Assembly (NCBI RefSeq): GCF_002252565.1
Contig: NZ_NPML01000019.1
Location: forward strand, 248,001 to 312,000
Source of the DNA: Petroclostridium xylanilyticum
GTDB taxonomy: Bacteria > Bacillota > Clostridia > SK-Y3
Length of the DNA stretch: 64,000 nucleotides
Reading direction: 5' to 3'
Part shown: positions 12,709 to 57,032 of the stretch, piece by piece
Position numbering within the stretch: position 1 is the stretch's first letter
Layout of the letters: each line of letters opens with the position of its first letter
The notes under the pieces: generated by a model
The model's input: the letters and a program-made list of their open reading frames with translations, nothing else
What the model was told of the DNA's origin: nothing
Database searches by the model: none
Program-made: the position numbers and the translations under genes

Positions 12709-12873
12709 AGTGTGGAGTGGGGAGTGGGGAGTGATTAGTGGGGAGATAAATCCCTCTAATTCATCCTAATCCCAACAAATTTAAACACATTTCATTTAAC
12801 AGTTATATAAATTATTATAAGCTTTATCATAGAATCACGAGATTCTTCACTATCCAATCCTCACTCCCCACTA
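12709..12873. repeat. Heptad-armed inverted repeat, GGGGAGT family (larB-larC)
   Basis: The left arm (12709-12745) is GTGGAGT, GGGGAGT, GGGGAGT, GATTAGT, GGGGAG. The right arm (12844-12873) is the diverged reverse complement. The right arm runs into larB and encodes its last residues, SGE plus the stop. Confidence 0.8.
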
Positions 12874-13628
12874 ATTTTGTTAATCATACTCGCCAAATAG
12901 GCTGCCCCAAATCCATTATCTATATTCACTACACCTACCCCGCTTGCACAGCTGTTAAGCATACATAAAAGCGCTGATAGGCCTCCAAAGTTGGCACCAT
13001 AGCCTACACTGGTAGGTACGGCAATCACCGGCTTGTCCACCAAGCCCCCAACTACGCTGGCCAAGGCCCCTTCCATTCCTGCAACTACGATGAGTACATT
13101 GGCCTGCATGAGCACATCGGTTTTTGAAAGCAAACGGTGAATCCCTGCTACACCAACATCATAGAGACGTTCAACCGTATTCCCCAGGGTTTCGGCTGTC
13201 ACTGCCGCTTCTTCCGCCACCGGGATATCCGCAGTACCTCCGGTTACTACCAATATCTTTTTCTTAGTCTTTGGTATATCTCTTTTCTTAACAACTACTG
13301 TCCTGGCAAGTTCGTAGTATTCTACATCTTCCGTAACCTCTTTAATTGCCTCATACACTTCTCTGCTCGCCCTGCTGGCAAGAATGTTGTTGTCTTTGTG
13401 TTCTATCATATGTTTTACAATCCCTTTTATATGTTCCAAAGACTTACCTGGACAGTAGATCACTTCAGGATAGCCGTTTCTTATCGCTCTATGATGGTCT
13501 ACCTTGGCATATCCTAAATCTTCATAAGGAAGTGTCCTTAGCCTTTCCAATGCAGTGTCTATATCAGTTTCTCCATTTTTTACATTTTCCAGGAGCAAAC
13601 GCAGCCTTTCCATATCCATAAAACTCAC
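12861..13628 (-). CDS. larB: Nickel-pincer cofactor synthase LarB (NaAD carboxylase/hydrolase)
   Basis: LarB carboxylates nicotinic acid adenine dinucleotide at C5 and hydrolyses the anhydride to give pyridinium dicarboxylate mononucleotide, the first step of cofactor assembly. The protein is 255 residues, the usual size. The C-terminal half resembles PurE (AIR carboxylase): TGGTADIPVAEEAA (about 130-143), VAGMEGALASVVGGL and PTSVGYGANFGG. It starts five bases after larE, indicating tight coupling. Its final codons are made from a heptad repeat array, suggesting that the array has overwritten the original C-terminal tail. Confidence 0.95.
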   Translation of the reverse strand: MSFMDMERLRLLLENVKNGETDIDTALERLRTLPYEDLGYAKVDHHRAIRNGYPEVIYCPGKSLEHIKGIVKHMIEHKDNNILASRASREVYEAIKEVTEDVEYYELARTVVVKKRDIPKTKKKILVVTGGTADIPVAEEAAVTAETLGNTVERLYDVGVAGIHRLLSKTDVLMQANVLIVVAGMEGALASVVGGLVDKPVIAVPTSVGYGANFGGLSALLCMLNSCASGVGVVNIDNGFGAAYLASMINKISGE

Positions 13629-13633
13629 ACCCT

Positions 13634-14458
13634 TTAAATTTTCTTTTCCTCTTCTGTTAATACTTCATTCATACTACCTGTCCTGTATCCTTCAAGATCC
13701 AGTGCGACGTAGGTAAACCCTATTGCTTTGAATTCTTTTACTATATCATTAAGGAATTTTTCATTGAAGAATCTCTGCCTATCCTCAGGTAATACTTCTA
13801 TCCTGGCAATATCACCGTGGTGTCTTACACGGAATTGTTTAAACCCTAAATCCATCAGGTATTCTTCTCCTCGTTCTATCATAGCTAGCTTTTCACGGGT
13901 AATCCTTATCCCGTAGGGAATTCTTGAAGCAAGGCAGGCAAAGGAGGGCCTGTCCCATGTCGGGAGATTCATCTGCCTGGATAGTTCCCTGATCTCCTGT
14001 TTCGTAAGCTGGGCAAATTTTAATGGGCTTATCACTTGTAATTCCTTAATAGCTTTCATTCCAGGACGGAAGTCATTGCTATCATCTGCATTGGAGCCGT
14101 CTGCCACATAATTAATTCCATTTTGCACAGCAATCTCTTTAATTTTTGTAAATATTGCATGTTTGCAAAAATAGCATCTATCCTTTGTGTTTTCTACAAA
14201 TTCTTTTACACTGTATTCATCTGCATCAATGATGATGTGTTTGACACCTAATCCTGCAGCAAATTGTTTAGCTTCATCATATTCCCTTTTTGTGTACATT
14301 GAAGACCGAACGGTTACAGCCATGGCTTTATCTTCCAATACTTCATGGGCTGCTGCCAATAAAAAAGTACTGTCAACTCCACCGGAAAAAGCTATACATA
14401 AGCTTCCAAGATTCTTTATGTATTGTTTTAAATGATTATATTTTCTTTGTAAATCCAA
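13634..14458 (-). CDS. larE: Nickel-pincer cofactor synthase LarE (sulfur insertion)
   Basis: LarE adenylates the two carboxylates of the LarB product and replaces oxygen by sulfur. The PP-loop SGGVDSTF (about 25-32) binds ATP. Cysteines C95 and C98 (DRCYFCKHA) and C175 (SFACLASR) form the three-cysteine set found in LarE proteins that carry a [4Fe-4S] cluster and transfer a cluster-bound sulfide, as opposed to the sacrificial single-cysteine type. Length is 274. The start appears to be TTG after AAGGAAG. It is first in the lar operon. Confidence 0.93.
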   Translation of the reverse strand: MDLQRKYNHLKQYIKNLGSLCIAFSGGVDSTFLLAAAHEVLEDKAMAVTVRSSMYTKREYDEAKQFAAGLGVKHIIIDADEYSVKEFVENTKDRCYFCKHAIFTKIKEIAVQNGINYVADGSNADDSNDFRPGMKAIKELQVISPLKFAQLTKQEIRELSRQMNLPTWDRPSFACLASRIPYGIRITREKLAMIERGEEYLMDLGFKQFRVRHHGDIARIEVLPEDRQRFFNEKFLNDIVKEFKAIGFTYVALDLEGYRTGSMNEVLTEEEKKI

Positions 14459-14647
14459 CGCTATCTTCCTTTTTTATAATAATAATTTTTATAATAATAA
14501 ATATATTTACCATGGTTATATAAGAAATAATCAAAATCTGTAGGATATTATATGCCTATATAAATTATAAACGATTTTATTTGTTTTGCATATAAGAATT
14601 GGTTATTATTTTATGTTTCTTTTAGCACACATATTTGTCTCCGTAAT

Positions 14648-14680
14648 CAAAAGGCAGACCTTGGGTCTGCCTTTTGATCG
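14648..14680 (-). terminator. Terminator of the mannan operon
   Basis: AAAAGGCAGACC pairs with GGTCTGCCTTTT directly after the last mannan gene; the reverse reading also ends in T-residues. Confidence 0.85.
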
Positions 14681-14684
14681 TACT

Positions 14685-15899
14685 CTATATCACACTTTTT
14701 AGTAGTTCATCATCAGTTTTCTTTAGCAATTCCAGATTTTTTGTAATCAGCTCATTACGCTGGGCTACACATGCATAGGAGCGCAGCGGATCTTCCGGAG
14801 TATTGGTGACATAGTCAAGCAATTTATCAATTGTAGTAGTCGCCACGTGAATTCGGGTATCGGATGATGCATAGTAAATATATACATCTCCATTTTCTCT
14901 GGCAATAGCCCCGTTGCAGAACACCACATTGGATACGTCTCCAATACGTTCTTCTCCCTCCGGAGCAATGAAATACCCCCCGGGCCGGTGAATAACCTTT
15001 TCCGGCTGGTCCAGCTTGGATAAAAAGGCATACAACACATAACGCAATCCGGCAGCAGTGTTTCTTACCCCATGGGCAATATGCAGCCAGCCTTTCTCTG
15101 TCTTGATTGGTGCCGGACCCTGGCCATTCTTTACTTCCTTGACAGTATGATACTGCCTGTCATCTACAATGATTTCTTCATCAATCACGGCATGTTCAAT
15201 GCTGTTGCTGAGTCCCCAGCCGATTCCTCCGCCGGAGCCCGCATCTATGAATCCGTCTTGAGGACGGGTGTAAAAAGCATATTTCCCGTTTACAAATTCG
15301 GGGTGCAGTACAACATTACGCTGCTGCGGGGATTTTGTTTTTATATCGTCAAGTCTTTCCCAGGTTTTAAGATCTTTCGTCCTGGCAATTCCACACTGGG
15401 CTACAGCACTGGAAGTGTCAGTTTTGGGAGCATCGGGGTCTTTTCTCTCGGTGCAGAACAAACCATAAATCCATCCATCTTCGTGTTTTACCACTCTCAT
15501 ATCATAAACATTAATATCGGGGTCATCTGTTTCGGGCATTACAATAGGATAATCCCAGAATTTAAAATTATCAATACCGTTATCACTTTCAGCTACAGCA
15601 AAGAAAGATTTTCGGTCTGTCCCTTCTACTCTGGCAACAAGATAAAACTTACCGTCTATTTCAATGGCTCCGGGATTGAAAACACAATTAATACCCAAAC
15701 GTTCCATCAGGTAAGGGTTTGTATGGTAATCAAGGTCATAACGCCAAAATAATGGAGTATGTTCTGCAGTAAGCACAGGATACTTATACCTGTCAAAAAT
15801 TCCGTTTCCACCCTCAACTTTTACATTTTTTCTTTCTACAAGTTCTTTATGCTTTTTTACCAGCAAACTTAATCTTTCATTGAAAAATTCTTTACTCAT
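14685..15899 (-). CDS. 4-O-beta-D-mannosyl-D-glucose phosphorylase (GH130 subfamily 1)
   Basis: This 404-residue enzyme has the five-bladed beta-propeller pattern of GH130. [18 protein letters not shown] and VARVEGTD are subfamily 1 features, and the proton-donor aspartate is D133 in NVYDMRVV. Known members convert mannosyl-beta-1,4-glucose and phosphate to mannose-1-phosphate and glucose. The adjacent cellobiose 2-epimerase makes exactly this substrate from mannobiose, which strongly supports the call. There is no signal peptide, so it is cytoplasmic. It is last in the operon, before a strong terminator. Confidence 0.9.
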
Positions 15900-15918
15900 T
15901 AGAATACCACCCTTTATC

Positions 15919-17142
15919 TTAATTATTTTTTAATGTATGCTGCTTCAAGCTTTCCAAACGTACAATGGTCTCAAAGCAAGCCCTGCTGTTATGATAAGGA
16001 CACTTCCACGGACCTACCTTTTCTCTATCTTTAAGTACCTTCCCTTCGCGGGTTACTCCCCAGAACCACTCTCCATGTTCTTTATCAATAATATATTGTT
16101 CAATAAACTGCCAGCAACGATAGGAAGCATCAAAAAAGTACTCTTTTCCGGTTAGCTGGTAGGCATTAAGAAACCCCACCACTGCTTCTGCTTGAGGCCA
16201 CCAATCTTTATTTGAATCGGTTAATCCCTGGGCATTTGCTTCATTTAATATGGCTCCGTCAGCATCAATCCCTTCTTCATAGGTAACCTGCGCCATTTTT
16301 ACAGCGGCCTTCTTTGCTTTTTCAATAATTTGTCTATCCCCCAACACTTCAGCTGCTTCAAGCAGAAGCCAGCTTCCTTCGATATCATGGCCGTAGGAAA
16401 CATGGTCACTTTTTACATTCCAGTACTCATCGAAAAAAAGTTTAAAATGATATGTGTTTGAGTCAATGATATGCTCAATTGTAACTTCAATAAGTTCTTT
16501 CAGCTTTCCTCTCAATACATTGTCATTCCACACCCTCAGCAAATTTGTGTAAGCTTCCAAAACGTGCAGATGGGTATTCATGGACTTTTTCTCGTTTAAA
16601 TCCTTGCTGCTCAGCCGTAAATCTTCTGCGATTACCCATTCCCGTGTACAAGCTTCAAAATATCCTTTATTTTCTCTATCATAACCATATTGTTCTACTG
16701 CTCTGAAAATCTCTACTGCACGTTCTAAACTTTCCTTCTCTCCGGTCGCCCTGTAATATTCCGACAAGGCATACATCACAAAAGCCTGGGCATATATTTG
16801 CTTCTTGGTATTAGTGGAATTTCCTTTAAAATCCACCATCCAGTAAACTCCTGAAAATTCATTGTCCCAAAAATGCTTAATAATGTATTCATATGCCCGC
16901 TTTGCCATGTCAAGATAACTCTTGTCCCCTAATATCCTGTAGGCCGCAGCATAAGTCCATAAGATGCGGGAATTTAGGATTACTCCTTTATCAGCTTTTT
17001 CATCAACTGTCAAGTCATTGGACACGTATCCATAGAAACCTCCATTCTTTTCATCAACCACCTTGTTGGTCCAAAAAGGCAATATATTGGTTGTCAATTC
17101 ATTTTTAACCTTTGATTGGAATGTACATATCTGACTTGTCAT
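15919..17142 (-). CDS. Cellobiose 2-epimerase
   Basis: An (alpha/alpha)6-barrel protein of the N-acylglucosamine 2-epimerase superfamily, 407 residues from the ATG at 17142. The GTG four codons earlier overlaps the ribosome site GAGGTGG, so the later start is preferred. Catalytic-type histidines are seen in [28 protein letters not shown] and [11 protein letters not shown], and the family motifs [11 protein letters not shown] and [11 protein letters not shown] are present. It epimerises the reducing-end sugar of beta-1,4-mannobiose or cellobiose at C2, giving mannosyl-glucose for the following GH130 phosphorylase. Cytoplasmic. Confidence 0.92.
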
Positions 17143-17206
17143 TATTGAATCCACCTCTATCTGTAATACTGCACGGTCAAATTTTTAGTACTTTTATTCC
17201 ATCTCC

Positions 17207-18136
17207 CTATATAGAGGAATAAAAATGACGGATTACTTTTTCAGCTGGCTTACCGAATACACCGTATCCATTATCTTTTGACGCATCTTTTTCATCATAC
17301 AAAAGAGCAGACCAATCCCACAAACCAAAACCTCTTACCCACTTTTTCTCCATTGTTTTTTCAAACATAACCCTATAGTATTTTTCCTGTTCTTCCAAAT
17401 TAACTTCTCCCACAAGCTCCCAATTATTAGGAATCAATGAAGAACCCGTACGACTTGGACATCCTGCCTCTGCAAAAAAGAAAGGTTTATTGTATTTCAT
17501 GACTACTTTTTCTATCCTTTCAAGCTGGTTTTCCCAGTCATTTATAGGATAATATCCACTTGAGGATATGACATCCACAGCATCCCACCAGGTAACATGA
17601 TCTTCCTGATATTTATCGGTATTATACGAAATACACCCATGATAGATTTTTCTTACTTCTTGAATAAGCTGTCTCCATTCTTGCTCCCGGCGCTGTGCCT
17701 GAACCATCTCACATCCGACGATGAACATTTCGCAATTGGTGCGTTGCGCAATTTCAGCATAGTGGCACTGGTAATTTGTATAACTTTCAAACCATTCACT
17801 CCATTTTGGTTCACATGGTACGTCCACGTCAAAAAAATTAATATGCGCTCTCCATGTTCCATTCCTGACATTGACCAAAGGTTTTAAAATAACCTTCAAA
17901 CCCAATGTCCTGGCATAATCAATCATATGCATCAATTCTTCATCACTTACAATGTGAGGACCTGTATAATCTATCTCAACAGATTGCGCTGTATCTTGAA
18001 GTGCTGCAAGGCAGATGATCACATGATTGATATTGGTCCTTTCTTTGAGCAGCTTAAGGGATTCCTTTGCTCTGGAATTTAAAAAATCACCTTTCTTACT
18101 TAAAAAACCGAATGTAAAACCTTTAATATATTCCAT
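17207..18136 (-). CDS. Beta-1,4-mannanase, GH113
   Basis: A 309-residue (beta/alpha)8 glycosidase. The acid/base glutamate is E143 in FIVGCEMVQ and the nucleophile E223 in FFFAEAGCPSR, the clan GH-A spacing; KGFTFGF at the start and VRNGTWR near 91 are typical of GH113. No signal peptide or binding module is present, so it should cut imported mannooligosaccharides inside the cell rather than polymeric mannan outside. It sits between the two GH130 genes in a co-directional operon. Confidence 0.88.
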   Translation of the reverse strand: MEYIKGFTFGFLSKKGDFLNSRAKESLKLLKERTNINHVIICLAALQDTAQSVEIDYTGPHIVSDEELMHMIDYARTLGLKVILKPLVNVRNGTWRAHINFFDVDVPCEPKWSEWFESYTNYQCHYAEIAQRTNCEMFIVGCEMVQAQRREQEWRQLIQEVRKIYHGCISYNTDKYQEDHVTWWDAVDVISSSGYYPINDWENQLERIEKVVMKYNKPFFFAEAGCPSRTGSSLIPNNWELVGEVNLEEQEKYYRVMFEKTMEKKWVRGFGLWDWSALLYDEKDASKDNGYGVFGKPAEKVIRHFYSSI

Positions 18137-18220
18137 CCTTCTCCTCCGAATACCATTATAATATAAAATATTCTATACCATGGGCACAAAACCCATGGTA
18201 CTTACCTTTTCGCCTGTTAG

Positions 18221-19243
18221 TCAGATGATTCCCAATTCCTGGTCCTCTCCTACCGTTTCATGATTGTCAATAATATAATTCACTATTTCATCTACTGTTG
18301 TATAAGCAACTCCTACATAGGTATCTGCTGCCCCATAATAAATTGCAATCCTTCCCGTATCAGCATCCTGCAGGGTAGCACACGGAAAGATTACATTGTC
18401 CACAAATCCTCTTTCCTCATACCATTCTTCAGGTGTCAGCACAAAGTTTTCACACCGGTATTTGACTTTTGAAGGCTGGACAATATCTAAAATGGCCGCT
18501 CCCATACTATATACATAACCATTGCACGTTTGAGTAACACCATGGTAAAACATCAACCATCCTTCCGTTGTTTCAATGGGTGCAGGTCCTCCACCTATCT
18601 TTAATGACTGCCACCAGCCTTTTCCACCTTTGCTCATCACGTGCCTGTGATTTCCCCAGTATTTCAAATCCGGACTGTCGCTAACGAAAATGTCGCCAAA
18701 AGGAGTATGCCCACTATCACTGGGACGGGACAACAGTACAAACTTATTGTCAATTTTTCTTGGAAACAATACACCATTCCTATTAAACGGTAAAAACGGA
18801 TTTGGAAGCCGGATGAATTTTTTGAAATCCTTTGTTTTGGCTAATCCTAATGCGGCACCATAAAAATCTGTACACCAGATAATATAATAAGTATCTTCTA
18901 CTTTTACCACACGAGGATCATAGGCATAACGCGGCTGATAAGGCCTTCCTTCCTCGTCCGTAAACACAATGCATTTTTCGTCAATAGACCAGTTTAGCCC
19001 GTCATCACTCCATCCTAAATGCAAATGCGGACGCCCATTGATTGTTTCTGCCCTGAAAACGCCTGCAAATTTCCCTTCATAAGGTACAACCGCACTATTA
19101 AAAATACGCGTAATTCCTTTTACTAAATTACGGTTTATAATAGGATTTTCTGTATGTCTCCATACGGGTCCATAATATCCTTCAGGTTTATCTTGCCACG
19201 GAATATTTGGCAAACTTTGCCCAATAATTTTGACTTTTATCAT
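18221..19243 (-). CDS. Beta-1,4-mannooligosaccharide phosphorylase (GH130 subfamily 2)
   Basis: A 340-residue GH130 protein. The general-acid aspartate is D109 in RYAYDPRVVK; NSAVVPYEGKFAGVFRAE and the phosphate-site segment GGGPAPIETTEGWL are present. Subfamily 2 members phosphorolyse mannooligosaccharides from the non-reducing end, releasing mannose-1-phosphate; subfamily 2 also includes enzymes acting on mannosyl-N-acetylglucosamine. The surrounding mannanase and epimerase favour mannooligosaccharides. Cytoplasmic. An ATG with a weak upstream GGAGTAA site starts the gene, about 100 bases after the permease gene. Confidence 0.85.
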   Translation of the reverse strand: MIKVKIIGQSLPNIPWQDKPEGYYGPVWRHTENPIINRNLVKGITRIFNSAVVPYEGKFAGVFRAETINGRPHLHLGWSDDGLNWSIDEKCIVFTDEEGRPYQPRYAYDPRVVKVEDTYYIIWCTDFYGAALGLAKTKDFKKFIRLPNPFLPFNRNGVLFPRKIDNKFVLLSRPSDSGHTPFGDIFVSDSPDLKYWGNHRHVMSKGGKGWWQSLKIGGGPAPIETTEGWLMFYHGVTQTCNGYVYSMGAAILDIVQPSKVKYRCENFVLTPEEWYEERGFVDNVIFPCATLQDADTGRIAIYYGAADTYVGVAYTTVDEIVNYIIDNHETVGEDQELGII

Positions 19244-32488: not shown

Positions 32489-32554
32489 AAGTTCACGGTT
32501 GACAGTTCACAGAATTAGATACAAAACTAAAATCTGTTAACCATGAACTGTGAG
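32489..32554. repeat. Heptad-armed inverted repeat, AGTTCAC family
   Basis: Left arm AGTTCAC, GGTTGAC, AGTTCAC, AG; right arm CTGTTAACCATGAACTGTGAG. Short and diverged. It lies between the dapB-like terminator and arsR. Confidence 0.75.
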
Positions 32555-34621: not shown

Positions 34622-34740
34622 GTTCCGGCAACGACCTACTTTCCCGGGAGGTCCCCCTCCAAGTATCATCGGCACGATGGAGCTTAACTACCGTGTTCGG
34701 AATGGGAACGGGTGTGTCCTCCATGTCATTGTCACCGGAT
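34622..34740 (-). rRNA. rrf: 5S ribosomal RNA
   Basis: Recognised from the conserved segments CACACCCGTTCCCATTCCGA and GGGAAAGTAGGTCGTTGCCG. Ends approximate. Confidence 0.95.
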
Positions 34741-34755: not shown

Positions 34756-34896
34756 AGTTCACAGTTCACGGTTCACAGGTCACGGTTTGAATTCTTAACC
34801 TGCTCTTTTAATTGCCTTAGGTACTCTTTCTTGTTCACCAGCATGTTCCCCATTCACCTTTCTACTGTGAACTGTGAACCATGAACTGTGAACTGT
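34756..34896. repeat. Heptad-armed inverted repeat in the 23S-5S spacer
   Basis: Left arm AGTTCAC, AGTTCAC, GGTTCAC, AGGTCAC; right arm (34864-34896) is CTGTGAA, CTGTGAA, CCATGAA, CTGTGAA. They enclose about 75 bases. Confidence 0.85.
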
Positions 34897-35015
34897 TTCA
34901 TGTACCCTCAAAACTATACAATGTAAAACATGAGGTTTTTGCAAAAACCTTCTTCATATATTCTTTCCCGCAATTAACCTCGTCTTTAATAATTATTCAT
35001 TGTTAATTGCTTTCT

Positions 35016-37860
<2,845 letters not shown>

Positions 37861-37867: not shown

Positions 37868-37934
37868 AGTGTGGAGTGGGAAGTGGATAGTGGGGAGTTC
37901 CCTCCTCCAGTCCTTACTTCCTTATCCTTCACTT
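37868..37934. repeat. Heptad-armed repeat in the 16S-23S spacer, copy near 23S
   Basis: GTGGAGT, GGGAAGT, GGATAGT, GGGGAG, then a diverged reverse arm ending ACTTCCTTATCCTTCAC. GGGGAGT family. Confidence 0.7.
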
Positions 37935-38082: not shown

Positions 38083-38229
38083 CAGTGAGGAGTGTGGAGT
38101 GATTAGTGGGGAGTTTCCCCTTCTGCTACTCTGCACTTCTACACTACTATTGAAAAACCTTTTATTAGCTTCATGCTTTCATGGGTAATGGTTTTCTCCC
38201 CACTCCCCACTATTCACTGTCCACTAATG
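38083..38229. repeat. Heptad-armed inverted repeat in the 16S-23S spacer
   Basis: Left arm CAGTGAG, GAGTGTG, GAGTGAT, TAGTGGG, GAG; right arm (38195-38229) CTCCCCACTCCCCACTATT and on. GGGGAGT family. The spacer (37861-38353) has no tRNA. Confidence 0.8.
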
Positions 38230-38347
38230 AATTGGTCTTTCAAAATTAAACAGCGTAAGCGTTCTCAGACATTACTTATCGTAATGTATCGACCATAGGA
38301 TTCGTTCCTTACTTTAATAATTATTAATTATTAATTGGAACTTCTCT

Positions 38348-39872
<1,525 letters not shown>

Positions 39873-39873: not shown

Positions 39874-40080
39874 GTTCACGGTTCACAGGTCACGGTTCAC
39901 TGTTCACTGAACCTCTTCTGTCAACCCAATCTGTTCCCCGTTATATATTAATCGTTCAATTTAGCTCATAAACTATTACTAACTTACTTTATTAAGTACG
40001 CTAGGTTTACTCATTTTTTGTTCACACTTTCACTCTCACCGCTCACTTCTGTGAACTGCGAACCGTGAACTGTGAACTAT
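39874..40080. repeat. Heptad arms flanking the 16S leader
   Basis: Arm one (39874-39913): GTTCACG, GTTCACA, GGTCACG, GTTCACT, GTTCACT. Arm two (40049-40080) is the reverse complement type, CTGTGAA, CTGCGAA, CCGTGAA, CTGTGAA. They lie between the rRNA promoter and 16S. Confidence 0.8.
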
Positions 40081-45006: not shown

Positions 45007-45030
45007 CTCTCCACTCCTCACTCTCTACTA
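45007..45030. repeat. Single heptad arm after greA
   Basis: On the minus strand AGTAGAG, AGTGAGG, AGTGGAG, AG begins at the greA stop codon. GGGGAGT-type unit. No opposing arm was found between greA and lysS. Confidence 0.6.
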
Positions 45031-45507
45031 TTTCTTGATTTCTAAAATCTTAAACTTAATTACCCCGTCAGGAACTGCCACATCAACAATACTTCCTACC
45101 TTTTGCCCTACGAGTGCTCTTCCCACAGGAGATTCATCAGAAATTTTATAATTGCTTGGGTCCGCTTCAGTAGAACCTACAATTGTATATTCTACTTCTT
45201 CATCAAACTCTAGATCTAAGACTTTAACTTTAGAACCGATACTAACAATCTCCGTATTTATATCTTCTTCATCTATAACTTTAGCATTTTTAAGCATATT
45301 TTCAAGCTGTACTATTCTAACTTCTACTTGCGCCTGCTCATTTTTAGCTTCATCGTATTCGGAATTTTCAGACAGATCACCAAAAGCTATTGCTTGTTTA
45401 ATCTTTTCGGCAACCTCTTTTCGCTTTACGGTTTTGAGATATTCAAGCTCATTCTCCAGTTTTTCAAGACCCTCATACGTTAATACAATTTGTTTACTAT
45501 TAGTCAT
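45028..45507 (-). CDS. greA: Transcription elongation factor GreA
   Basis: Rescues backtracked RNA polymerase by stimulating transcript cleavage. From ATG 45507 (after AAGGAGAG; an upstream in-frame ATG at 45525 lacks a site) the protein is 159 residues, the family norm. The N-terminal coiled coil carries the acidic tip in [18 protein letters not shown] and the C-terminal FKBP-like domain includes [14 protein letters not shown]. Confidence 0.96.
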
Positions 45508-45720
45508 TTGATGTCTCTCCTTCATATTCTTCTTTATTTTGCAATATTATCTACCTTTAAGTCCATCCTAGTATTTTCACAGTGTTGAAAAATTCCACAT
45601 AATACAGCTGCAAATTTTTATGTTGATAATATATGCTATAACTTTGTAATTATTCATGAAATGACTTATGTCTTGATTTTTTTATATTATAAACAACAGT
45701 TTATGCATTGTCAATAAATA

Positions 45721-49090: not shown

Positions 49091-49214
49091 TATACATTTA
49101 CTGATAGCGATTTTACATGGCAGATAAAGTCAATAAGTTCACAGTTCACGGTTCACAGTAAAAGCTATTAAATCGTTGATTGCTGTGAACTGAGAACTGA
49201 GAACTGTGAACTAT
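49091..49214. repeat. Composite heptad element, copy 1
   Basis: Contains the block TTTTACATGGCAGATAAAGT, a left arm AGTTCAC, AGTTCAC, GGTTCAC, the centre AAGCTATTAAATCGTT and a right arm of CTGTGAA-type heptads. The same composite occurs at 52082 and 56905. Apart from this, 48970-49317 shows no gene. Confidence 0.85.
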
Positions 49215-49317
49215 ACATTTAAATAAATATTAAAATTATCTCCATAATATTAAATATTTTAACACAAAATTAACAGGGCAACAATGTTAATTTATTAAAT
49301 TAACTTAAAATAAAATC

Positions 49318-49347: not shown

Positions 49348-50559
49348 TTACATTCCTTGTTTCACTACCTCAATTGCTTTTTTAAGTTGAACATCTTCTT
49401 CCTCTTTTATCTGAGCAATGCTCCTTTTTAATTCTTCCGGAAACTCCACAACGATATCCGGTTGTATTCCTACCCCCTGAATGGACGTGCCATTAGGAGT
49501 ATAATATTTGGAAATAGTAACTTTAACCGCCGAACCGTCGCCAAGAGGGAAAAGTGTTTGAACCAAGCCCTTTCCAAACGTTTTTGTTCCTACCAGCTTT
49601 CCTTTACCGTGGTCTTTTATTGCCCCTGATAGTATTTCTGAGGCACTGGCACTTCCGCCATTGACAAGTACAACCAGAGGAATTTTTATTTCTTCTTTAT
49701 CCGAATATTTTGTATCTCTATTCTTATTTTTATCCTCGGTATAAACGATTAACCCCTCCGGCAGAAGGCGGTCAGCAATTTTTACAACCTCGTCCAGCAG
49801 CCCTCCGGGATTGTCTCTTACGTCAATGATTAATCCGCTAACATTCTTGCTATATAAATCGTCCAAAGCGGCATCAAAGTCTTTACTTGTTTTTTCATCA
49901 AACATAGTAATACGGATATATCCGATATTTCCGTCAATAACTTTATGCTTTACAGTTTGCAAAACAATGATATCTCTTTTGATAGTTATATCTTTTGGCT
50001 GGGATAGATTTTCCCGTACAATGGTGATAGTGACCTCTGTATTTTTAGGTCCCTTCATCATGCTCACTGCTTCTTCCAATTTATCTGCCCACACATCTTT
50101 TCCATTTACCTTAATGATTTTATCTCCAGGTAATATCCCTGCTTTTTCCCCTGGAGTACCTTCAAAGGGTGCTACCACAGTAATAAGATTATCTTTTGGG
50201 TCTGGAGCTACTACAACACCAATCCCGGCATAACTGCCATGAGTCTGTGTCATAAAATCGTCGTATTCTTTTTTATTCATATATACTGTATACGGGTCTC
50301 CTACAGCCGCTGCTACTCCTGCAGCAGCTCCTTCCATCAGTTTTTCTTCTTCTACAGGTTCAACATAATATTTTTTAATAATTTCTCTTACCTGGTTTAT
50401 TTTTGTATATTGTGTCCTTCCCCCCTGCACATTAAAAATGCCATAGAGAGGCAGGTTGCCTACTACAAGATACAAAACACTTGTTGCAATAAAGGTTGTA
50501 AATATAGTAATTAATACTAGTACAATTGCGCCAATCAATATACTACGTTTCCTAAACAA
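49348..50559 (-). CDS. S41-family C-terminal processing peptidase (CtpA/CtpB)
   Basis: A 403-residue protease. An N-terminal membrane helix (about 8-33) is followed by a PDZ domain (about 95-180, GIGVVVAPDPKDNLITVVAPFEGTPGEKAGILPGDKI fold, positions rather than full motif) and the S41 core with the serine in NGGSASASEILSGA and the lysine in GTKTFGKGLVQ. Homologues process extracytoplasmic proteins; CtpB in Bacillus acts in SigK activation during sporulation. It begins at TTG after AAGGAGA. It lies near an EnvC-like protein and ftsEX, a common clostridial neighbourhood. Confidence 0.93.
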   Translation of the reverse strand: MFRKRSILIGAIVLVLITIFTTFIATSVLYLVVGNLPLYGIFNVQGGRTQYTKINQVREIIKKYYVEPVEEEKLMEGAAAGVAAAVGDPYTVYMNKKEYDDFMTQTHGSYAGIGVVVAPDPKDNLITVVAPFEGTPGEKAGILPGDKIIKVNGKDVWADKLEEAVSMMKGPKNTEVTITIVRENLSQPKDITIKRDIIVLQTVKHKVIDGNIGYIRITMFDEKTSKDFDAALDDLYSKNVSGLIIDVRDNPGGLLDEVVKIADRLLPEGLIVYTEDKNKNRDTKYSDKEEIKIPLVVLVNGGSASASEILSGAIKDHGKGKLVGTKTFGKGLVQTLFPLGDGSAVKVTISKYYTPNGTSIQGVGIQPDIVVEFPEELKRSIAQIKEEEDVQLKKAIEVVKQGM

Positions 50560-50835
50560 TCAATCCCATCTCCTTAAAGTTACCCAAAGCTGAAGAAATC
50601 TTTATAATGAAGATAAGCTTCATTTTGAGTCCCTTATTATTCTCTAGTTTATAATATTTTGTACATTAAATTATTATACCTTATTATTGTAAAGAATAAA
50701 AGATTAAGATAACAATAAAATTGAAATCTTAATCTCTTCTTAACATTAAACTTTAAATAAAATTTATAATTATAACTATTTATATCGATAACCAATATTG
50801 AAGCTAAAAATAAATTAATGTAGTTATCGATGAAA

Positions 50836-50883
50836 TTAACCAACTTTAAAATCTCAATATTCAGTTTTAAAGTTGGTTAATTA
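50836..50883 (-). terminator. Terminator overlapping the end of the EnvC-like gene
   Basis: ATTAACCAACTTTAAAA pairs with TTTAAAGTTGGTTAAT across a 14-base loop; it covers the stop codon. Confidence 0.8.
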
Positions 50884-52016
50884 TAATATTTCATGGGGTC
50901 CACAGGGGTACCATTTTCTCTAACCTCAAAATGCAAGTGAGGTCCGGTTGACCATCCTGTACTTCCTACCTTTGCTATTGTCTGTCCTTTTTTCACTTCA
51001 TCCCCGGCACTAACAAGAAGGGAACTATTATGGGCATACAATGTTGCAATTCCTCCTCCATGGTCAATGATAATGCATTTTCCGTATCCCCCGTTGGATG
51101 CAGCTAAAATAACCTTTCCAGCATTAGCTGCCTTTACGGTCGCACCGGAAGGAGCGCCTATATCAATTCCTGTATGCATCCTTGTCGTCCTTAATATCGG
51201 GTGATATCTATTGCCGAAGGGGGATGTAATATTATAATAATTTGGCGCCGGCCACTCCAATTTACCTCCAGCATATTTTCTTTTGTTTTGTTCTTGCAAC
51301 TTTCGTATTTCTTTTTCCACCTGCTTTGATAGTTCCTCCAATTCATCTAAAGCACGTTCATATTCTTTTTCCTGTGAACTTAGTCTTGCCAGCGTTTGAC
51401 TTCTTGATACCTGCTTTTCATTCAATACCCTTTTTGTATCTGCTACACGATTTTTTATTTTTTCTCTATTTTTCCTTTCGTCTTCAGCAGCCTGCCTGGC
51501 TTTAGCTACATTGTCCCTGTTCTGTTTTAATTGTGCTAAAAGGTTATTGTCATATTGTATAATCTCTTTTACAATCTCCAGTCTGGATATGAAATCAGAA
51601 AAACTTGTTGCGTTTAACAGTACCTCCAAATAAGTAGTATTTCCATCTTCATACATCGTCCTGGCTCTCAATTTTAACACTTCAAACTGTTGTTCGGCTG
51701 CTCTCATTGCTTCTGCAAGCTCTTCTTCTTTTTCTTTAATCTTCTTTTCACTTTGAGAAAGCAGCTTGTTGATTTCATCCAACTCATTTTCTGTCTTATC
51801 AATTTCCTGTTCAATCTTTTCTATTTCATTGATTACTCCTTTTTTTTGGTTTTGTACTGCTTTTAACTCTTTCTGTGTCTCATTCATTTCCTTATTAACC
51901 CTATTAAGCTTTTTTTCCAAATCTTGCAGTCCTTCGGCATATACAGGCAAAATTGTTCCCAGTATAAATATTAATGTTATACTGGCAACTGCTATCGTCA
52001 TAACTCTTTTGTTCAT
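50877..52016 (-). CDS. Murein hydrolase activator / M23 endopeptidase, EnvC-like
   Basis: A 379-residue exported protein: signal peptide (about 1-27), a long coiled coil (about 28-245, repeatedly E/K/Q-rich), and a C-terminal LytM/M23 domain. The zinc-site motifs HTGIDIG and GPHLHFEVR are intact, so it may be an active endopeptidase, unlike E. coli EnvC. The proteins of this architecture act with FtsEX to control septal peptidoglycan hydrolysis, and ftsEX lies immediately upstream. Between them sits a composite repeat element. Confidence 0.92.
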   Translation of the reverse strand: MNKRVMTIAVASITLIFILGTILPVYAEGLQDLEKKLNRVNKEMNETQKELKAVQNQKKGVINEIEKIEQEIDKTENELDEINKLLSQSEKKIKEKEEELAEAMRAAEQQFEVLKLRARTMYEDGNTTYLEVLLNATSFSDFISRLEIVKEIIQYDNNLLAQLKQNRDNVAKARQAAEDERKNREKIKNRVADTKRVLNEKQVSRSQTLARLSSQEKEYERALDELEELSKQVEKEIRKLQEQNKRKYAGGKLEWPAPNYYNITSPFGNRYHPILRTTRMHTGIDIGAPSGATVKAANAGKVILAASNGGYGKCIIIDHGGGIATLYAHNSSLLVSAGDEVKKGQTIAKVGSTGWSTGPHLHFEVRENGTPVDPMKYYN

Positions 52017-52081
52017 CAGACCTCGGATCCCCCTTTATCATATAGTAAATTAATTGTCATAGATTCACGTGTTATACTATA

Positions 52082-52204
52082 TATTTACTAATAATGATTT
52101 TACATGGCAGATAAAGTAAATAAGTTCACAGTTCACGGTTCACGGTAAAAGCTATTAAATCGTTTACTACTGTGAACTGAGAGCTGTTAACTTTGAACTA
52201 TATA
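52082..52204. repeat. Composite heptad element, copy 2
   Basis: The same plan as at 49091, beginning ATTTACTAATAATGATTTTAC. The right arm ends about two bases from the ftsX stop codon. Confidence 0.85.
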
Positions 52205-52206
52205 GT

Positions 52207-53094
52207 TTAAACACGAAGGTATTTTCTAATCGATATTGCGCTGCCAATTGCACCTATGCTTGTCCCGATGACAATAAAAATTAACGCCAGACCTTCAAAC
52301 ACCTCTGAAAATTCTCTAAGTTTAAAGATATTTATACTTTGATAGATGAGCTTCAAAATATAATTATAGCCATAACCCACCAAAACCAGGGATAACAGTG
52401 CTCCTATTAGCCCGATCACGATGCCTTCCACAATAAATGGCCAACGAATAAACCAGTCAGTAGCTCCAACAAATTTCATAATATTTATTTCTTTCCTGCG
52501 GGCAAAAACTGCTAATTTAATGGTATTAGATATAATAAATACAGCGATAAATGCTAAAAGTATCATTACCCATAAGCTGCCCATCCTGATAAATTCTGTA
52601 ATCTTTAATAACTTTTCCACAGTCTCCCTGTGATTTTTGACTTTCACGATTCCAGGAATTGTCCCTAGCTGCTGTACTACCTGGTCTGCATACTGAATAT
52701 CGCTAAGATTTATTATATATGAATGTCTTAATGGGTTATGTTTCTCAAATCCTTCCAGTACGTGCGCATCTTCGCCCAGCTGCTTTTTATAGTTTTCCAA
52801 AGCTTGTTCCTTAGTTTCAAGGACACATTCCCGTACATACCGTATATTTTTAATTTTTGCTCCTATTTCATCAACTTGCTCAATGGGTATACTTTCATCA
52901 ATAAATGCTTTGATTTCCCACTGGTCTTTTATTTGACCACCTATAAAATTTATATTTGTACTAAACAGCATAAACATTCCAAAAATAATAAGACATGCAA
53001 CCACAATGCCTATTGAAGCCAAGCTCATGATCCGATTGGTCCATATGCTTGAAAAACCTTCTTTAACAAAATATTTAAATGTACTAACTTTCAT
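52207..53094 (-). CDS. ftsX: Cell division protein FtsX
   Basis: Membrane partner of FtsE, about 295 residues from ATG 53094. It has a short cytoplasmic N-terminus, one helix (about 22-45), an extracellular domain (about 50-165) and three C-terminal helices. VFARRKEINIMKFVGATDWFIRWPF is the conserved coupling region. It overlaps ftsE by about ten bases, so translation is coupled. Signals to the peptidoglycan hydrolase encoded next. Confidence 0.93.
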   Translation of the reverse strand: MKVSTFKYFVKEGFSSIWTNRIMSLASIGIVVACLIIFGMFMLFSTNINFIGGQIKDQWEIKAFIDESIPIEQVDEIGAKIKNIRYVRECVLETKEQALENYKKQLGEDAHVLEGFEKHNPLRHSYIINLSDIQYADQVVQQLGTIPGIVKVKNHRETVEKLLKITEFIRMGSLWVMILLAFIAVFIISNTIKLAVFARRKEINIMKFVGATDWFIRWPFIVEGIVIGLIGALLSLVLVGYGYNYILKLIYQSINIFKLREFSEVFEGLALIFIVIGTSIGAIGSAISIRKYLRV

Positions 53095-53770
53095 AACCAT
53101 ACACGCCTTTCTCTTCATCACGAACAACAGTACCTTTTTCTAAAGCAATCACCCGCTTTTTCATATTGTTTACAATTTCTTTTGCATGGGTAGCCATTAC
53201 TACAGTAGTCCCCCTCTTATTAATATCATTAATTAACTTAACAATATCCCATGCAGTTTCAGGGTCGAGATTTCCCGTCGGCTCATCGGCTATAAGTACC
53301 GAAGGGTTATTAGCCAATGCCCGTGCCAAAGATACCCTTTGCTGCTCTCCACCTGATAATTGATGGGGATACATTTTCGCTTTACTGCTCAACCCTACCA
53401 TGCTTAGAAGAAACGGAACCTGTCGCCGTATTTCCTTTGCAGAAGCTTCAACGATTTTCATTGCAAAAGCCACATTTTCATATACTGTTTTATTTGGAAG
53501 CAGCCTAAAGTCCTGAAATACTATACCCATACTTCTTCGCAAATATGGAATTTCACCTCTGCGAAGATTTGTCACATCAAAATCATTCACTACAATGCTG
53601 CCGGAACTGGCTTCTTCTTCCCTCAGCAACAATTTGATCAACGTGGACTTCCCTGCCCCACTGGGACCTACAATAAAAACAAATTCACCTTTATTTATTG
53701 ATAAATTAACGTTATTTAACGCTATTGTGCCATTACTATATGTTTTAGATACATTCGTCAACAATATCAA
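53084..53770 (-). CDS. ftsE: Cell division ATP-binding protein FtsE
   Basis: A 228-residue ABC ATPase. Walker A is GPSGAGKST, the signature LSGGEQQR and Walker B VLIADEPTGNLDP. It powers FtsX to activate septal hydrolases. Start at ATG following GAGGTG. First gene of the ftsE-ftsX pair. Confidence 0.95.
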   Translation of the reverse strand: MILLTNVSKTYSNGTIALNNVNLSINKGEFVFIVGPSGAGKSTLIKLLLREEEASSGSIVVNDFDVTNLRRGEIPYLRRSMGIVFQDFRLLPNKTVYENVAFAMKIVEASAKEIRRQVPFLLSMVGLSSKAKMYPHQLSGGEQQRVSLARALANNPSVLIADEPTGNLDPETAWDIVKLINDINKRGTTVVMATHAKEIVNNMKKRVIALEKGTVVRDEEKGVYGYES

Positions 53771-53949
53771 TTATTAACACCTCTAATAAAATAAAATTAA
53801 CAACCAAATTACATTATTCTACATAACACATCAAAATTCCTTCTTATTTCCCATCTTTTTTTGTAAAAATCTAGGAGTTAAAATTTGACACTATATGTAG
53901 ACGAATGTGTAAAATTATCCACAATATATCGACTAAATTTGATAAGAAT

Positions 53950-53980
53950 AAAAAAACCCGGGTAATTATTTCCCAGGTGT
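53950..53980 (-). terminator. Terminator downstream of the CdaR-like gene
   Basis: ACCTGGG pairs with CCCGGGT (one wobble) around AAATAATTA, followed by seven T residues on the minus strand. Confidence 0.7.
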
Positions 53981-53984
53981 CGTT

Positions 53985-54083
53985 TTTAGTTTATAGTTCT
54001 TAGTTCATGGTTCGTAGTTTTACAGCAACAGTCCATAGAACAATACTCAGAAACTATTAACAACGAACCACGAACTACGAGCA
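53985..54083. repeat. Heptad-armed inverted repeat, TAGTTC variant
   Basis: Left arm TAGTTTA, TAGTTCT, TAGTTCA, TGGTTCG, TAGTTTT; right arm CAACGAACCACGAACTACGA. A variant of the AGTTCAC family. The rest of 53771-54128 has no gene. Confidence 0.8.
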
Positions 54084-54128
54084 ATTTATATTATTTACGT
54101 CATGGTAGTCACTTATCTGTTTATCCTT

Positions 54129-55214
54129 TTAAATCTTTATCGGGTTGGAGTCCAAGTACTTTTTAACCATCATTGCAACTTTAAATATAATTGCATGGTC
54201 AAAAGTTCTCAAGTCCATTCCGGTCATTTTTTGTATCTTGTCCAATCTGTATACAAGTGTATTTCTATGAACATACAGCTTTCTTGAGGTCTCACTTACA
54301 TTCAAGTTATTTTCAAAAAATTTCTTGATTGTAAGCATAGTTTCTTCGTCTAGTGCATCGATAGACTCTTTTTTAAACACCTCTGCCAAAAATAGTTCAC
54401 ATAACGTCGTCGGAAGCTGATAAATGAGTCTGCCAATTCCGAGATTATCATAGTTAATGATATAATTTTCAGTATCAAAAACCTTACCTACTTCCAATGC
54501 AACCTGTGCCTCTTTATACGACTTAGCCAGATCTTTAATATTGCTCACTACTGTACCGATTCCCACATAAACCTTAACCAGAGCTTCTGTATTCAAAGTA
54601 TCTACAATGGTTTTAGCAATCTTCTCAAGGTCTTCAGACTCACAATTGCTCTTTACCTCTTTTACCAGTACAACATTATAATCATCTATAACAAATACAA
54701 AATCTTTATTTTTTGCAGGAAATAAATTTTGAATGGTATCATGGACATAAAGATCACTGCCCTCATAGGTACGTATTAAAAATACCACTCTATGAGCATC
54801 CAGCTGTAAATGTAACTCCTTGGCTTTTATTGCAATATCTCCAGGGAGAATGTTATCCAGTATAACATTCTTAATAAAATTACCCTTGTCAAATTTTTCG
54901 TCATAATACTGCTTCAAATTATCTATACTAATCGCTATTAATGAGCAATATTTACCGGCAAGCTCATCATCACCAGATACGAAGACGATATGTTCTGTTT
55001 TGTTTTTCTTTCCGATAGATTTAAATGTAAAACCATTATAAGCCACAGCTTCCTGATTTTCATGAACAGCATCAGGCAAATCTTCAAATTGCTCTCCATT
55101 TTTCATATCATTTGAGCACGCAATAATAAGTCCTGCTTCATCCAGCACTCCCAGTTCTCGATCTATAACATCTTTCATCTGATAAATAATATTTTGAAAT
55201 AATCTACTAGACAC
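54129..55214 (-). CDS. CdaR/PucR-family transcriptional regulator
   Basis: A 361-residue protein with the C-terminal PucR helix-turn-helix (about 295-350, FFENNLNVSETSRKLYVHRNTLVYRLDKI). The central part (about 150-270) resembles the GGDEF-like fold of this family. The N-terminal region is the putative sugar-diacid-type sensor. It is adjacent to and downstream of the MsmK-type ATPase gene in the same direction, suggesting a link to sugar uptake. The effector is unknown. Confidence 0.87.
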   Translation of the reverse strand: MSSRLFQNIIYQMKDVIDRELGVLDEAGLIIACSNDMKNGEQFEDLPDAVHENQEAVAYNGFTFKSIGKKNKTEHIVFVSGDDELAGKYCSLIAISIDNLKQYYDEKFDKGNFIKNVILDNILPGDIAIKAKELHLQLDAHRVVFLIRTYEGSDLYVHDTIQNLFPAKNKDFVFVIDDYNVVLVKEVKSNCESEDLEKIAKTIVDTLNTEALVKVYVGIGTVVSNIKDLAKSYKEAQVALEVGKVFDTENYIINYDNLGIGRLIYQLPTTLCELFLAEVFKKESIDALDEETMLTIKKFFENNLNVSETSRKLYVHRNTLVYRLDKIQKMTGMDLRTFDHAIIFKVAMMVKKYLDSNPIKI

Positions 55215-55255
55215 AATAACACCCCCTATACATAGTATACACTTAATTATACAAT

Positions 55256-55306
55256 AAAAAAAGAAGGAAATGTATCCATTTGATACATTTCCTCCTTTTT
55301 TTATAT
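55256..55306 (-). terminator. Terminator between the MsmK-type and CdaR-like genes
   Basis: GGAGGAAATGTATCAAA pairs with TGGATACATTTCCTTC, with T-rich flanks in both directions. Confidence 0.85.
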
Positions 55307-55315
55307 AAGTTTACA

Positions 55316-56428
55316 TTAGTTGATGATAGTTCTTTCTGTATCTTTATCAAACAGATGTATTTTATTTACATCTAAAGCAATCTTAACTGTGTCACCAGCT
55401 TTAGCTTTAGTTCTTGGATTAACTCTTGCAGTAAAGTTTACACCTTCAACAGTCATGTATAAGAAAGTTTCGGCACCCATCATTTCTACAACATCAATCT
55501 TGGATTCTACAATACTGTCAGGCATTGAAGAAAGGTAAGCTTCTTCATCATGAAGATTTTCAGGTCTGATACCCATAACAACTTCTTTGCCTATATATTC
55601 AGTACCTTCTAATTTCTTAGCTTTACCTTCCGGAAGTTTTATATCATTCTTGCCAAATACAAGATGTATACCATCTTCTTTCTTTTGAACCTTAACATTG
55701 ATAAAGTTCATCTGAGGACTTCCAATAAATCCAGCAACGAACATGTTACATGGTTTTTCATAAAGTGTTTGTGGCGTATCTACCTGTTGGATAAAACCAT
55801 CTTTCATAACAACGATTCTTGTACCCATTGTCATAGCTTCTGTTTGGTCATGGGTAACGTAAATAAATGTTGTTTGAAGTCTCTGATGGAGTTTGCTAAT
55901 CTCGGTTCTCATCTGAACTCTCAGTTTAGCATCAAGGTTAGAAAGAGGTTCGTCCATTAAGAATACTTTTGGTTCACGAACGATGGCACGACCTAAAGCA
56001 ACTCTCTGTCTCTGTCCACCGGATAATGCCTTTGGCTTTCTGTCAAGCAAGTGAGCAATATCAAGAATTTTTGCCGCTTCATTAACTCTTCTCTTAATTT
56101 CATCCTTAGGAGTTTTTCTGAGTTTCAAACCAAAAGCCATGTTTTCAAAAACTGTCATATGAGGATAAAGAGCGTAGTTCTGGAAAACCATTGCAATATC
56201 TCTATCCTTTGGTGCAACATCGTTAACAAGTTTGTCACCAATGTAAAGTTCACCTTCACTGATTTCTTCCAATCCTGCTATCATTCTCAAGGTAGTTGAC
56301 TTACCGCATCCTGAAGGACCAACCAGGATCAAAAACTCTTTGTCTTCGATATCAAGATTGAAGTCACTTACTGCTGTAACACCGCCAGCATACCTTTTGT
56401 AAACATTTTTTAGCTTTAAGCTTGCCAT
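55316..56428 (-). CDS. Multiple-sugar ABC transporter ATPase, MsmK/UgpC type
   Basis: A 370-residue ATPase. Walker A GPSGCGKST, signature ALSGGQRQR and Walker B FLMDEPLSNLDAK are intact, followed by the C-terminal OB/TOBE regulatory domain (about 240-370). An in-frame start further upstream at 56488 has no good site; ATG at 56428 follows AGGAGGGGG. In streptococci and bacilli one MsmK/MsmX-type ATPase energises several sugar importers lacking their own. The mannan importer in this window lacks one, as does the visible part of the locus at the left edge. Confidence 0.9.
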   Translation of the reverse strand: MASLKLKNVYKRYAGGVTAVSDFNLDIEDKEFLILVGPSGCGKSTTLRMIAGLEEISEGELYIGDKLVNDVAPKDRDIAMVFQNYALYPHMTVFENMAFGLKLRKTPKDEIKRRVNEAAKILDIAHLLDRKPKALSGGQRQRVALGRAIVREPKVFLMDEPLSNLDAKLRVQMRTEISKLHQRLQTTFIYVTHDQTEAMTMGTRIVVMKDGFIQQVDTPQTLYEKPCNMFVAGFIGSPQMNFINVKVQKKEDGIHLVFGKNDIKLPEGKAKKLEGTEYIGKEVVMGIRPENLHDEEAYLSSMPDSIVESKIDVVEMMGAETFLYMTVEGVNFTARVNPRTKAKAGDTVKIALDVNKIHLFDKDTERTIIN

Positions 56429-56474
56429 TATTGTGCCCCCTCCTAAATAATTTAAGTAAGTTAACTTTCTATAT

Positions 56475-56690
56475 TGAACCTCCCACAACTAAAGCCGCAG
56501 GATTCCTAATTCATCGACTGCTTTGCAGTCTCCAAAGGCTTAACTTCGGGTAGTCCCTACCCTAGTTCGAGTCCTTAACTCTACTGAAGTCACGAGTGTG
56601 CGGACGCTATTCATCAAAACGGCTTCAGATTTTCTTTTTACATATGAAAAGCCCTTTTGATTTCATACTTTTCTACCTCTTTTAAGATAT
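56475..56690 (-). pseudogene. IS200/IS605-type tnpB 3' end and right-end (omega-RNA-like) remnant
   Basis: Read on the minus strand, LPEVKPLETAKQSMN then a stop, ESCGFSCGRFN and GGGAGGTTCA match in my recall the last codons and right end of clostridial IS605 tnpB genes. The DNA here is GC-richer and highly structured compared with its neighbours. The upstream part is broken by stops. The end lies about 45 bases before the MsmK-type gene. No tnpA or nuclease domain remains. Confidence 0.5.
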
Positions 56691-56904
56691 TAAGTTTATT
56701 CAGGGAAAAGTATGCATTTCTTATATTCTTAATATAGCATATCGGCATACCGGATGTTAGATGTTATTTACACAAAATTGAAAATTTCATTTTAGTAACA
56801 TTGCATAAACAAGCCCTCGTTATTCTACTCCTTTTGTTTACATAAGTTCGATTCATTAAATAAAAAACAGAACAACATTTTATGATTCATTATGCATGAT
56901 CTAA

Positions 56905-57032
56905 TATATATATTTACTGATAATGATTTTACATGGCAGATAAAGTAAATAAGTTCACGGTTCACTGTTCTCAGTAAAAGCTATTAAATCGTTTATTACA
57001 GTTAACTGTGAACTATGAACTGTGAACTGTTA
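56905..57032. repeat. Composite heptad element, copy 3
   Basis: Third copy of the element at 49091 and 52082, starting ATATTTACTGATAATGATTTT. Its right arm (CTGTGAA, CTATGAA, CTGTGAA, CTGT) runs directly into the stop codon of the chromate-transporter gene. Confidence 0.85.

Follow-up and report, generated by a model that had tools for sequence, protein, structure and literature searches.

Intergenic DNA of Petroclostridium xylanilyticum is rich in tandem arrays of imperfect seven-base units (heptads), some of which face each other as the two arms of a hairpin. Here, we describe these arrays in a window of 64,000 nucleotides (contig NZ_NPML01000019.1 of assembly GCF_002252565.1, positions 248,001 to 312,000), in larger samples of the same genome, and in relatives. 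The arrays are many times more frequent than in resampled sequence, differ in length by whole units, form one stem of a mobile element that we call E1, and occupy the spacers of the ribosomal RNA (rRNA) operons, where a relative keeps the place and has other units. We consider it probable, although well short of certain, that these are slippage-driven heptad arrays, some paired as hairpins, spread in part by a miniature inverted-repeat transposable element (MITE), and persisting in RNA that is discarded or left untranslated. A sequence-only reading of the window had reported intergenic inverted repeats with a period of seven; eleven such sites proved real, each within a few bases of where it had been placed.

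Frequency and Distribution of Period-Seven Arrays

The source genome consists of 3.86 Mb in 41 contigs. Arrays were counted in 464 kb of it (C7:1-400000 plus the window), with eight second-order Markov resamplings as the control, and in 320 kb of Petroclostridium sp. X23 (G003), a relative from the same family. The first sample holds 42 arrays of period seven against a resampled mean of 2.4 (maximum 8), an excess of about 17-fold, and the second 44 against 1.4 (maximum 4), about 31-fold, so that in both genomes the arrays are far more common than in shuffled DNA. Other periods are raised less than period seven in P. xylanilyticum: periods 6, 9, and 12 gave 18, 14, and 18 arrays against about 2 after resampling, and since these are multiples of three, coding periodicity would explain them. 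Periods 5 and 10 lie just over the top resampling (6 versus 5 and 5 versus 4, respectively), and periods 4, 8, and 11 are at chance level in the 464-kb sample. In X23, periods 6, 10, 11, and 12 reached 4-6 arrays each against about 1 resampled. The period-seven arrays lie mostly outside open reading frames (ORFs; 71 of 85 in both samples together), although ORFs make up 79-88% of the sequence.

Genome-wide, the pattern GTTCACNGTTCAC has 145+128 matches in P. xylanilyticum and its reversed pattern 0+0. Three tandem copies of GTTCAC, the sole unit that was searched so widely, occur 49+48 times in this genome and are absent from 248 further genomes sampled from the phylum, among which the compared genomes G001-G005 were not included. 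The two-copy GTTCAC pattern has any match in 12 of 99 genomes and is common only within the same family, with 81+92 matches in X23, 22+22 in G001, and 2+4 in G004, and none in the family members G002 and G005. The landscape of period-seven repeats is patchy and lineage-specific, comprising P. xylanilyticum and some of its relatives.

E1, a Miniature Element With Heptad Arms

Three of the sites in the window are copies of a single multi-copy element, E1, which has a length of about 125-135 bp and folds into two hairpins, the second with a stem built of heptads:

49091..49217, plus strand: E1 copy 1, with the left hairpin, heptad arms of three units (left) and four units (right), and ends TATA...TATA
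52078..52204, plus strand: E1 copy 2
56907..57040, plus strand: E1 copy 3, with a right arm of five units

The order within the element is TATATTTACTGATAATGATTTTACATGGCAGATAAAGTMAATA, AGTTCAC-type units, a conserved tip of 28 bases, GTGAACT-type units, and TATA, and its terminal inverted repeats are imperfect (TATATTTACTG / TATAGTTCACAG). The left-end marker of E1 is found at 50 places in P. xylanilyticum with 0-1 mismatch and at 66 with up to three (control 10 at up to three), while its counts in G001, X23, and G004 are at the control level; the best match in G001 covers the second hairpin only. Among 44 copies that were read, conservation starts and stops at TATATA. Insertion could be followed because another repeat family serves as a target of E1 (CGATAAC...GTTATCGATG with AACCAACTTTAA arms; C7:255154-255233, 298390-298505, 184457-184565, and 389081-389190). 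Of the copies read, 41 were testable, and the comparison was made with unoccupied copies of this repeat, which carries five of them. Filled and unoccupied repeat copies reveal a duplicated TA for E1 at C7:330341, L091, and L114. In the window, the orthologous gap of copy 1 lacks E1 in L031, L032 (X23), and L033, and that of copy 2 lacks it in L032 (X23) and L033. E1 is a TA-inserting MITE that was not matched to a named family, and the outcome that the sequence-only reading would have counted against itself, namely that the arms are ends of a known insertion sequence (IS) or MITE, applies in part: three sites are MITE copies.

The copies of E1 also record changes in the number of units. Left arms contain two to six units and right arms one to six, with lengths (copies) of 17 (9), 24 (25), 31 (4), 38 (5), and 45 (1) on the left and 13 (1), 20 (1), 27 (7), 34 (29), 41 (2), and 48 (4) on the right, and in both arms of all 44 copies the lengths differ solely by multiples of seven. 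The length of the left arm is not significantly correlated with that of the right arm (rho 0.11, p 0.48; in a second parsing rho 0.21, p 0.17), values that include mis-parsed rows (L100, L108, and L115 in the first parsing; w56931, L086, and L090 in the second), which were fixed by eye in the length counts and not in rho. If each arm slipped on its own, whole-unit steps without correlation between the arms would be expected.

A search with PF13358 found no autonomous IS630 element for E1. Two remnants of DDE_3 transposases lie in opposite orientation at C29:263640-265668 (L121, L122).

Heptads in rRNA Operon Spacers and Beside Other Stable RNAs

The rRNA operon of the window, on the minus strand, carries heptads in its leader and spacers:

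34756..34895, minus strand: hairpin of AGTTCAC units directly upstream of 5S (34623-34739, minus strand); fold z -7.4
34970..35010, minus strand: short hairpin at the 3' end of 23S, with AATTAAC, AATGAAT, and AATTATT heptads, read by eye and missed by the array scans
37868..37933, minus strand: AGTGGGG-type array directly upstream of 23S (35015-37858), with a weak partner below the null
38084..38225, minus strand: AGTGGGG-type hairpin between 16S and 23S (fold z -2.9), with AGTGAAT units at this position in X23
38313..38341, minus strand: AATTAAT heptads after 16S, three units in three operon copies and four in the fourth
39874..40080, minus strand: hairpin of AGTTCAC units directly upstream of 16S (38354-39872); fold z -4.7

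The comparison included four operons of P. xylanilyticum with a full 16S, one further leader at a contig end, and seven operons of X23. Heptads flank 16S (in its leader and on its 3' side) and 23S (on both sides), and they also occur in the internal transcribed spacer (ITS) and before 5S. Corresponding spacers hold different units, AGTTCAC, AGTGGGG, and AATTAAT in P. xylanilyticum versus AGTGAAT, AGTTAAT, and AATGTAC in X23. The 23S-5S spacer of X23 even exists as two alleles, with matched arms of two different families (L135 and L139 versus L136-L138, L140, and L141). In one operon (L134, G000:C19:503500-511500) two tRNA genes in the ITS replace the right heptad arm, and an extra AATTAAT unit follows 16S; this difference of one heptad between paralogous operons (3 versus 4 units) is again a whole-unit change. 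Pairing has further exceptions, since two operons have a truncated arm on the 5S side and the right arm of the X23 16S leader is degenerate. Long-range stems around 16S and 23S, as read from the sequence, appear to be separate and free of heptads.

Other stable RNAs give a mixed picture. The 5' flank of the transfer-messenger RNA (tmRNA) has CACTCCC-type heptads in P. xylanilyticum, 6 nt away and detected at the looser threshold only, and directly adjoining CACTATT-type heptads in X23, where the fold of the leader is not stronger than that of shuffled sequence (z -0.5). OLE RNA (RF01071; C7:148092-148723, i.e., L043:8092-8723, in P. xylanilyticum and L159:3156-3783 in X23) has heptads about 47 nt upstream in the former, and in the latter arrays overlap both ends of the match. 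No heptads stand beside RNase P RNA in either genome; in cyanobacteria, heptads are found beside the RNase P RNA of rnpB. With the same threshold applied to RNAs and genes, an array within 60 nt upstream was counted for four of seven stable-RNA classes (16S, 23S, 5S, and OLE) and for 7 of 183 protein genes (Fisher 2e-4), or, at the looser threshold that adds tmRNA, for 5 of 7 and 16 of 183 (2e-4). Adding four tRNA loci from the C7 sample changes the fractions to 4/11 (0.0015) and 5/11 (0.003), a count that does not cover tRNAs elsewhere in the retrieved loci or the tRNA next to the 5S of the window; RNase P RNA, 6S, and these four tRNA loci have no array within 60 nt upstream. These counts have to be read with the fact that the three rRNAs form one linked unit and prompted the test, while tmRNA and RNase P RNA, tested afterwards, gave one hit and one miss. 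All seven operons of X23 have an array in the 60 nt upstream of 23S and likewise of 5S, and there is one beside the X23 tmRNA; for the 5' end of 16S this is so in none of the seven, the array sitting further up the leader.

A different explanation would be that heptad helices are selected, sequence-indifferent parts of RNA maturation at mature 5' ends, perhaps RNase III-type targets or insulators. The excess upstream of stable RNAs compared with protein genes and the recurrence of arrays with different units at 23S, 5S, and tmRNA of X23 speak for it. However, stable RNAs without an array within 60 nt upstream are found in both genomes (RNase P RNA, 6S, and the tRNA loci here, 16S and RNase P RNA in X23), pairing is lost or damaged at several rRNA arms, the X23 tmRNA leader does not fold beyond chance, the rRNAs are linked and gave rise to the test, and most arrays are not beside RNA genes at all, which makes this explanation rather unlikely. 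A bolder version appears still less probable, and we mention it as a conjecture: in this family of bacteria, the helix in the discarded leader of many stable RNAs (rRNAs, tmRNA, and OLE) could be a structure-only, sequence-free maturation part whose unit family is exchangeable wholesale and comes from a genome-wide, slippage-prone pool to whose spread a MITE contributes. The sequence-only reading had proposed RNA-processing signals among other roles, and the rRNA and tmRNA flanks are suggestive of this at most, the role itself being unproven.

Free Arrays, Their Pairing, and Their Counterparts in Relatives

The remaining sites in the window belong neither to E1 nor to the rRNA operon:

12709..12873, no strand assigned: AGTGGGG-type pair, left arm 12709-12745, right arm 12848-12873; fold z -4.2
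32489..32554, no strand assigned: free degenerate pair, left arm 32489-32512, right arm 32534-32554; partner below the 99% null
45007..45031, no strand assigned: single AGTGAGG-type arm at the 3' end of the gene at 45028-45525
53988..54082, no strand assigned: AGTTCGT/AGTTTAT pair adjoining a conserved terminator-like hairpin

Two unit families had been proposed for the window, and both are present as two of many: AGTTCAC, AGTTCAT/CGT, AGTGGGG, AGTTAGG, and AATTGAG in P. xylanilyticum, and AGTGAAT, AGTTAAT, AATGTAC, and AATGGAC in X23. The opposing arms that had been described as the rule are likewise a feature of some arrays only, since at the looser threshold a partner above the 99% null exists for 24 of 69 arrays in the 400 kb of C7. 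In the window it is 13 of 16, so that the window, which contains the rRNA operon and three E1 copies, over-represents pairs. The hairpins of the window fold with z from -2.7 to -7.4 against shuffles. The unit can be read as A-R-T-K-N-N-N in 63 of the 71 arrays between genes, a count that includes the E1 arms, compared with 27.6% of random heptads, a motif chosen post hoc among recurring families whose observations are not independent, and hence a pattern and no test. Among 24 pairs, this reading fits better in 21 for the 5' arm and in 22 for the 3' arm when reversed, all others being ties; the left arm of the 16S leader has the opposite orientation.

The correspondence between arms invites the explanation that they copy each other by template switching within the hairpin, so that complementarity is kept while units change. 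Across 20 non-E1 pairs, the unit family is indeed common to both arms far more often than when partners are shuffled (summed score 346; 5000 shuffles gave a mean of 159 and a maximum of 273.5), and a few pairs, e.g., X_440:60066, have the same order of variant units in both arms. However, variant order is usually not common to the two arms of a pair, some other arm of the family usually matches better than the arm's own partner, with ranks spread over the range, and E1 arm lengths are not significantly correlated. On the partner ranks of the 20 pairs, copying between arms is disfavored, and we regard it as very improbable.

All paired arrays, E1 and the others alike, might instead be small mobile hairpin insertions or the inverted ends of mobile inserts. 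At three gaps that are short in P. xylanilyticum (C7:145475, 137902, and 313727), X23 has paired hairpins or segments bounded by heptads, about 100-450 bp long. Among the 32 arms of pairs other than E1, 20 have a T before the outermost unit, where the outer boundary is fixed by construction. Target duplication, on the other hand, is demonstrable for E1 only, many arrays are single, and the unit families are too different for one element. We regard this general mobility as unlikely, and the mobile system that had been suggested for the window is supported for E1 only, the free arrays offering no comparable evidence.

Orthologous gaps in relatives show how sites differ. Beside the same terminator-like hairpin at 53985, X23 (L032) has an AGCTCAC pair (fold z -3.4), and at 45007, L033 has a paired AGTTCGG hairpin (fold z -4.7), both below the threshold of the array scan; at 45007, L031 and L032 have an ordinary short hairpin with a T-run instead of the array. 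The X23 gap orthologous to the 32489 pair has no array. For G001, G002, and two loci of metagenome-assembled genomes, the scan found an array in none of ten array-bearing gaps, a scan that misses weaker arrays such as the one of L033 at 45007. General retention of array sites with X23 was tested and is not supported: Fisher 0.034 on 79 gaps becomes 0.11 without two rows that are spurious ORFs inside rRNA, and 0.18 with stratification by gap length. Most arrays outside RNA genes look lineage-specific. The replacement at 45007 in two relatives is also the observation that favors transcription terminators or 3' RNA-stability hairpins as the nature of the arrays. Intrinsic terminators have a GC-rich stem followed by a T-run and stand at the 3' ends of genes. 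This reading is hardly credible, since convergent-gene sites are not enriched (5 versus 5.6 expected by length here, 4 versus 5.8 in X23), 12 of 188 genes have an array in the 60 nt downstream of the stop, and heptads also occur inside rRNA operons.

Some further repeats and RNAs were noticed. GC-rich repeats GGGGACGGTT...AACCGTCCCC stand beside heptad arrays in both genomes (C7 near 80900; X23 gaps opposite C7:137902 and 144591). An array resembling clustered regularly interspaced short palindromic repeats (CRISPR) lies near C7 23266, with the repeat GTAGAACCGAAACATACGATGTATTGAAAT. Two RAGATH-18 RNAs (L036:510-570 and L044:4880-4940) have similar flanks, apparently as a duplicated segment.

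Proposed Origin and Maintenance of the Arrays

The explanation that we favor, slippage-driven arrays spread in part by a MITE, involves several steps. Arrays gain and lose whole units, most likely by replication slippage, and E1 carries one of the hairpins, inserting at TA with duplication of the TA in three copies. A missing mariner/IS630-like transposase would have moved it, and the remaining sites are free arrays of several unit families. Arrays may be retained at places where the RNA is discarded or not translated and a helix does no harm or is of use, chiefly in rRNA spacers and the tmRNA leader. Where a site is common to two genera and the unit family is different, the simplest route would be wholesale replacement and not change base by base.

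Several observations weigh against this scheme. Slippage, which the sequence-only reading had suggested and with which the steps of seven in E1 and the one-heptad difference after 16S are consistent, is indistinguishable here from unequal recombination between copies, and wholesale replacement rests on a handful of loci. E1 at C7:378669 and L115, inside the same target repeat, has no clean TA overlap, and three of the 44 copies were not parsable for the TA test. A transposase that moves E1 was not found with PF13358, the sole family searched, which gave two sub-threshold fragments, neither with ends like those of E1. Outside rRNA, arrays are shared with X23 in 7 of 77 gaps versus 5.2 expected (p 0.18, stratified by gap length).

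Comparison With Known Heptad Systems

MITEs of the mariner/IS630 type duplicate a TA target. E1 resembles them in being short and multi-copy, with imperfect terminal inverted repeats and a duplicated TA, and differs in its inner stem of variable heptads and in having no autonomous partner in the PF13358 search. Repetitive extragenic palindromes (REP) and bacterial interspersed mosaic elements (BIME) have a GTAG-type foot and a Y1 transposase (REP-associated tyrosine transposase, RAYT) nearby.

The paired-arm form itself, which had been thought undescribed in Clostridia, has no report in this group among the literature matches listed, but it is described elsewhere. Heptad repeats are known as GGGAATC in Xanthomonas and as GGGGA(C/T)T in Nostoc PCC 7120 (Rehm et al., 2015, PMC4692102). 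Inverted pairs account for 70 and 75 cases in Xanthomonas, and between two related genomes lengths vary while the single or paired type is usually kept; the abundance of heptamers has been proposed to reflect how much DNA the polymerase holds, a proposal cited by the same authors (PMC4692102). The arrays described here share with these the imperfect 7-bp tandem units, the intergenic location, and copy number in whole units, and the AGTGGGG-type units appear similar to the GGGGACT type of Nostoc. In contrast, the Xanthomonas and Nostoc units are G-rich and generally without a link to mobile elements, whereas Petroclostridium has many families, a MITE, and rRNA and tmRNA flanks. The TAACTGA repeats of Beggiatoaceae are likewise intergenic and seven bases long, but they are direct repeats of one unit, with one indirect repeat reported in that genome (PMC4679880).

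The closest parallel at the RNA level is stem P6b of the trnL group I intron of Nostoc, which consists of heptanucleotides of Class I or II (Kaasalainen et al., 2015, PMC4476775; PMC3488679). As these papers describe, repeat number varies, and one class of unit takes the place of another with a similar fold retained (PMC4476775; PMC3488679). A paired heptad stem at a fixed RNA position with exchanged unit class is common to both systems, but P6b is one cyanobacterial intron locus, whereas in Clostridia many loci are involved, notably the rRNA spacers. Paired heptads are thus already known, and the present case differs in host group, in number of unit families, in the E1 MITE, and in the flanks of stable RNAs. 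Clostridia thereby join Xanthomonas and Nostoc as hosts of paired heptad hairpins. The present case has E1 copies as a record of unit gain and loss and replicate rRNA and tmRNA loci in which the stem sequence differs between genera and the place is kept, and it makes testable why a period of seven recurs in bacteria.

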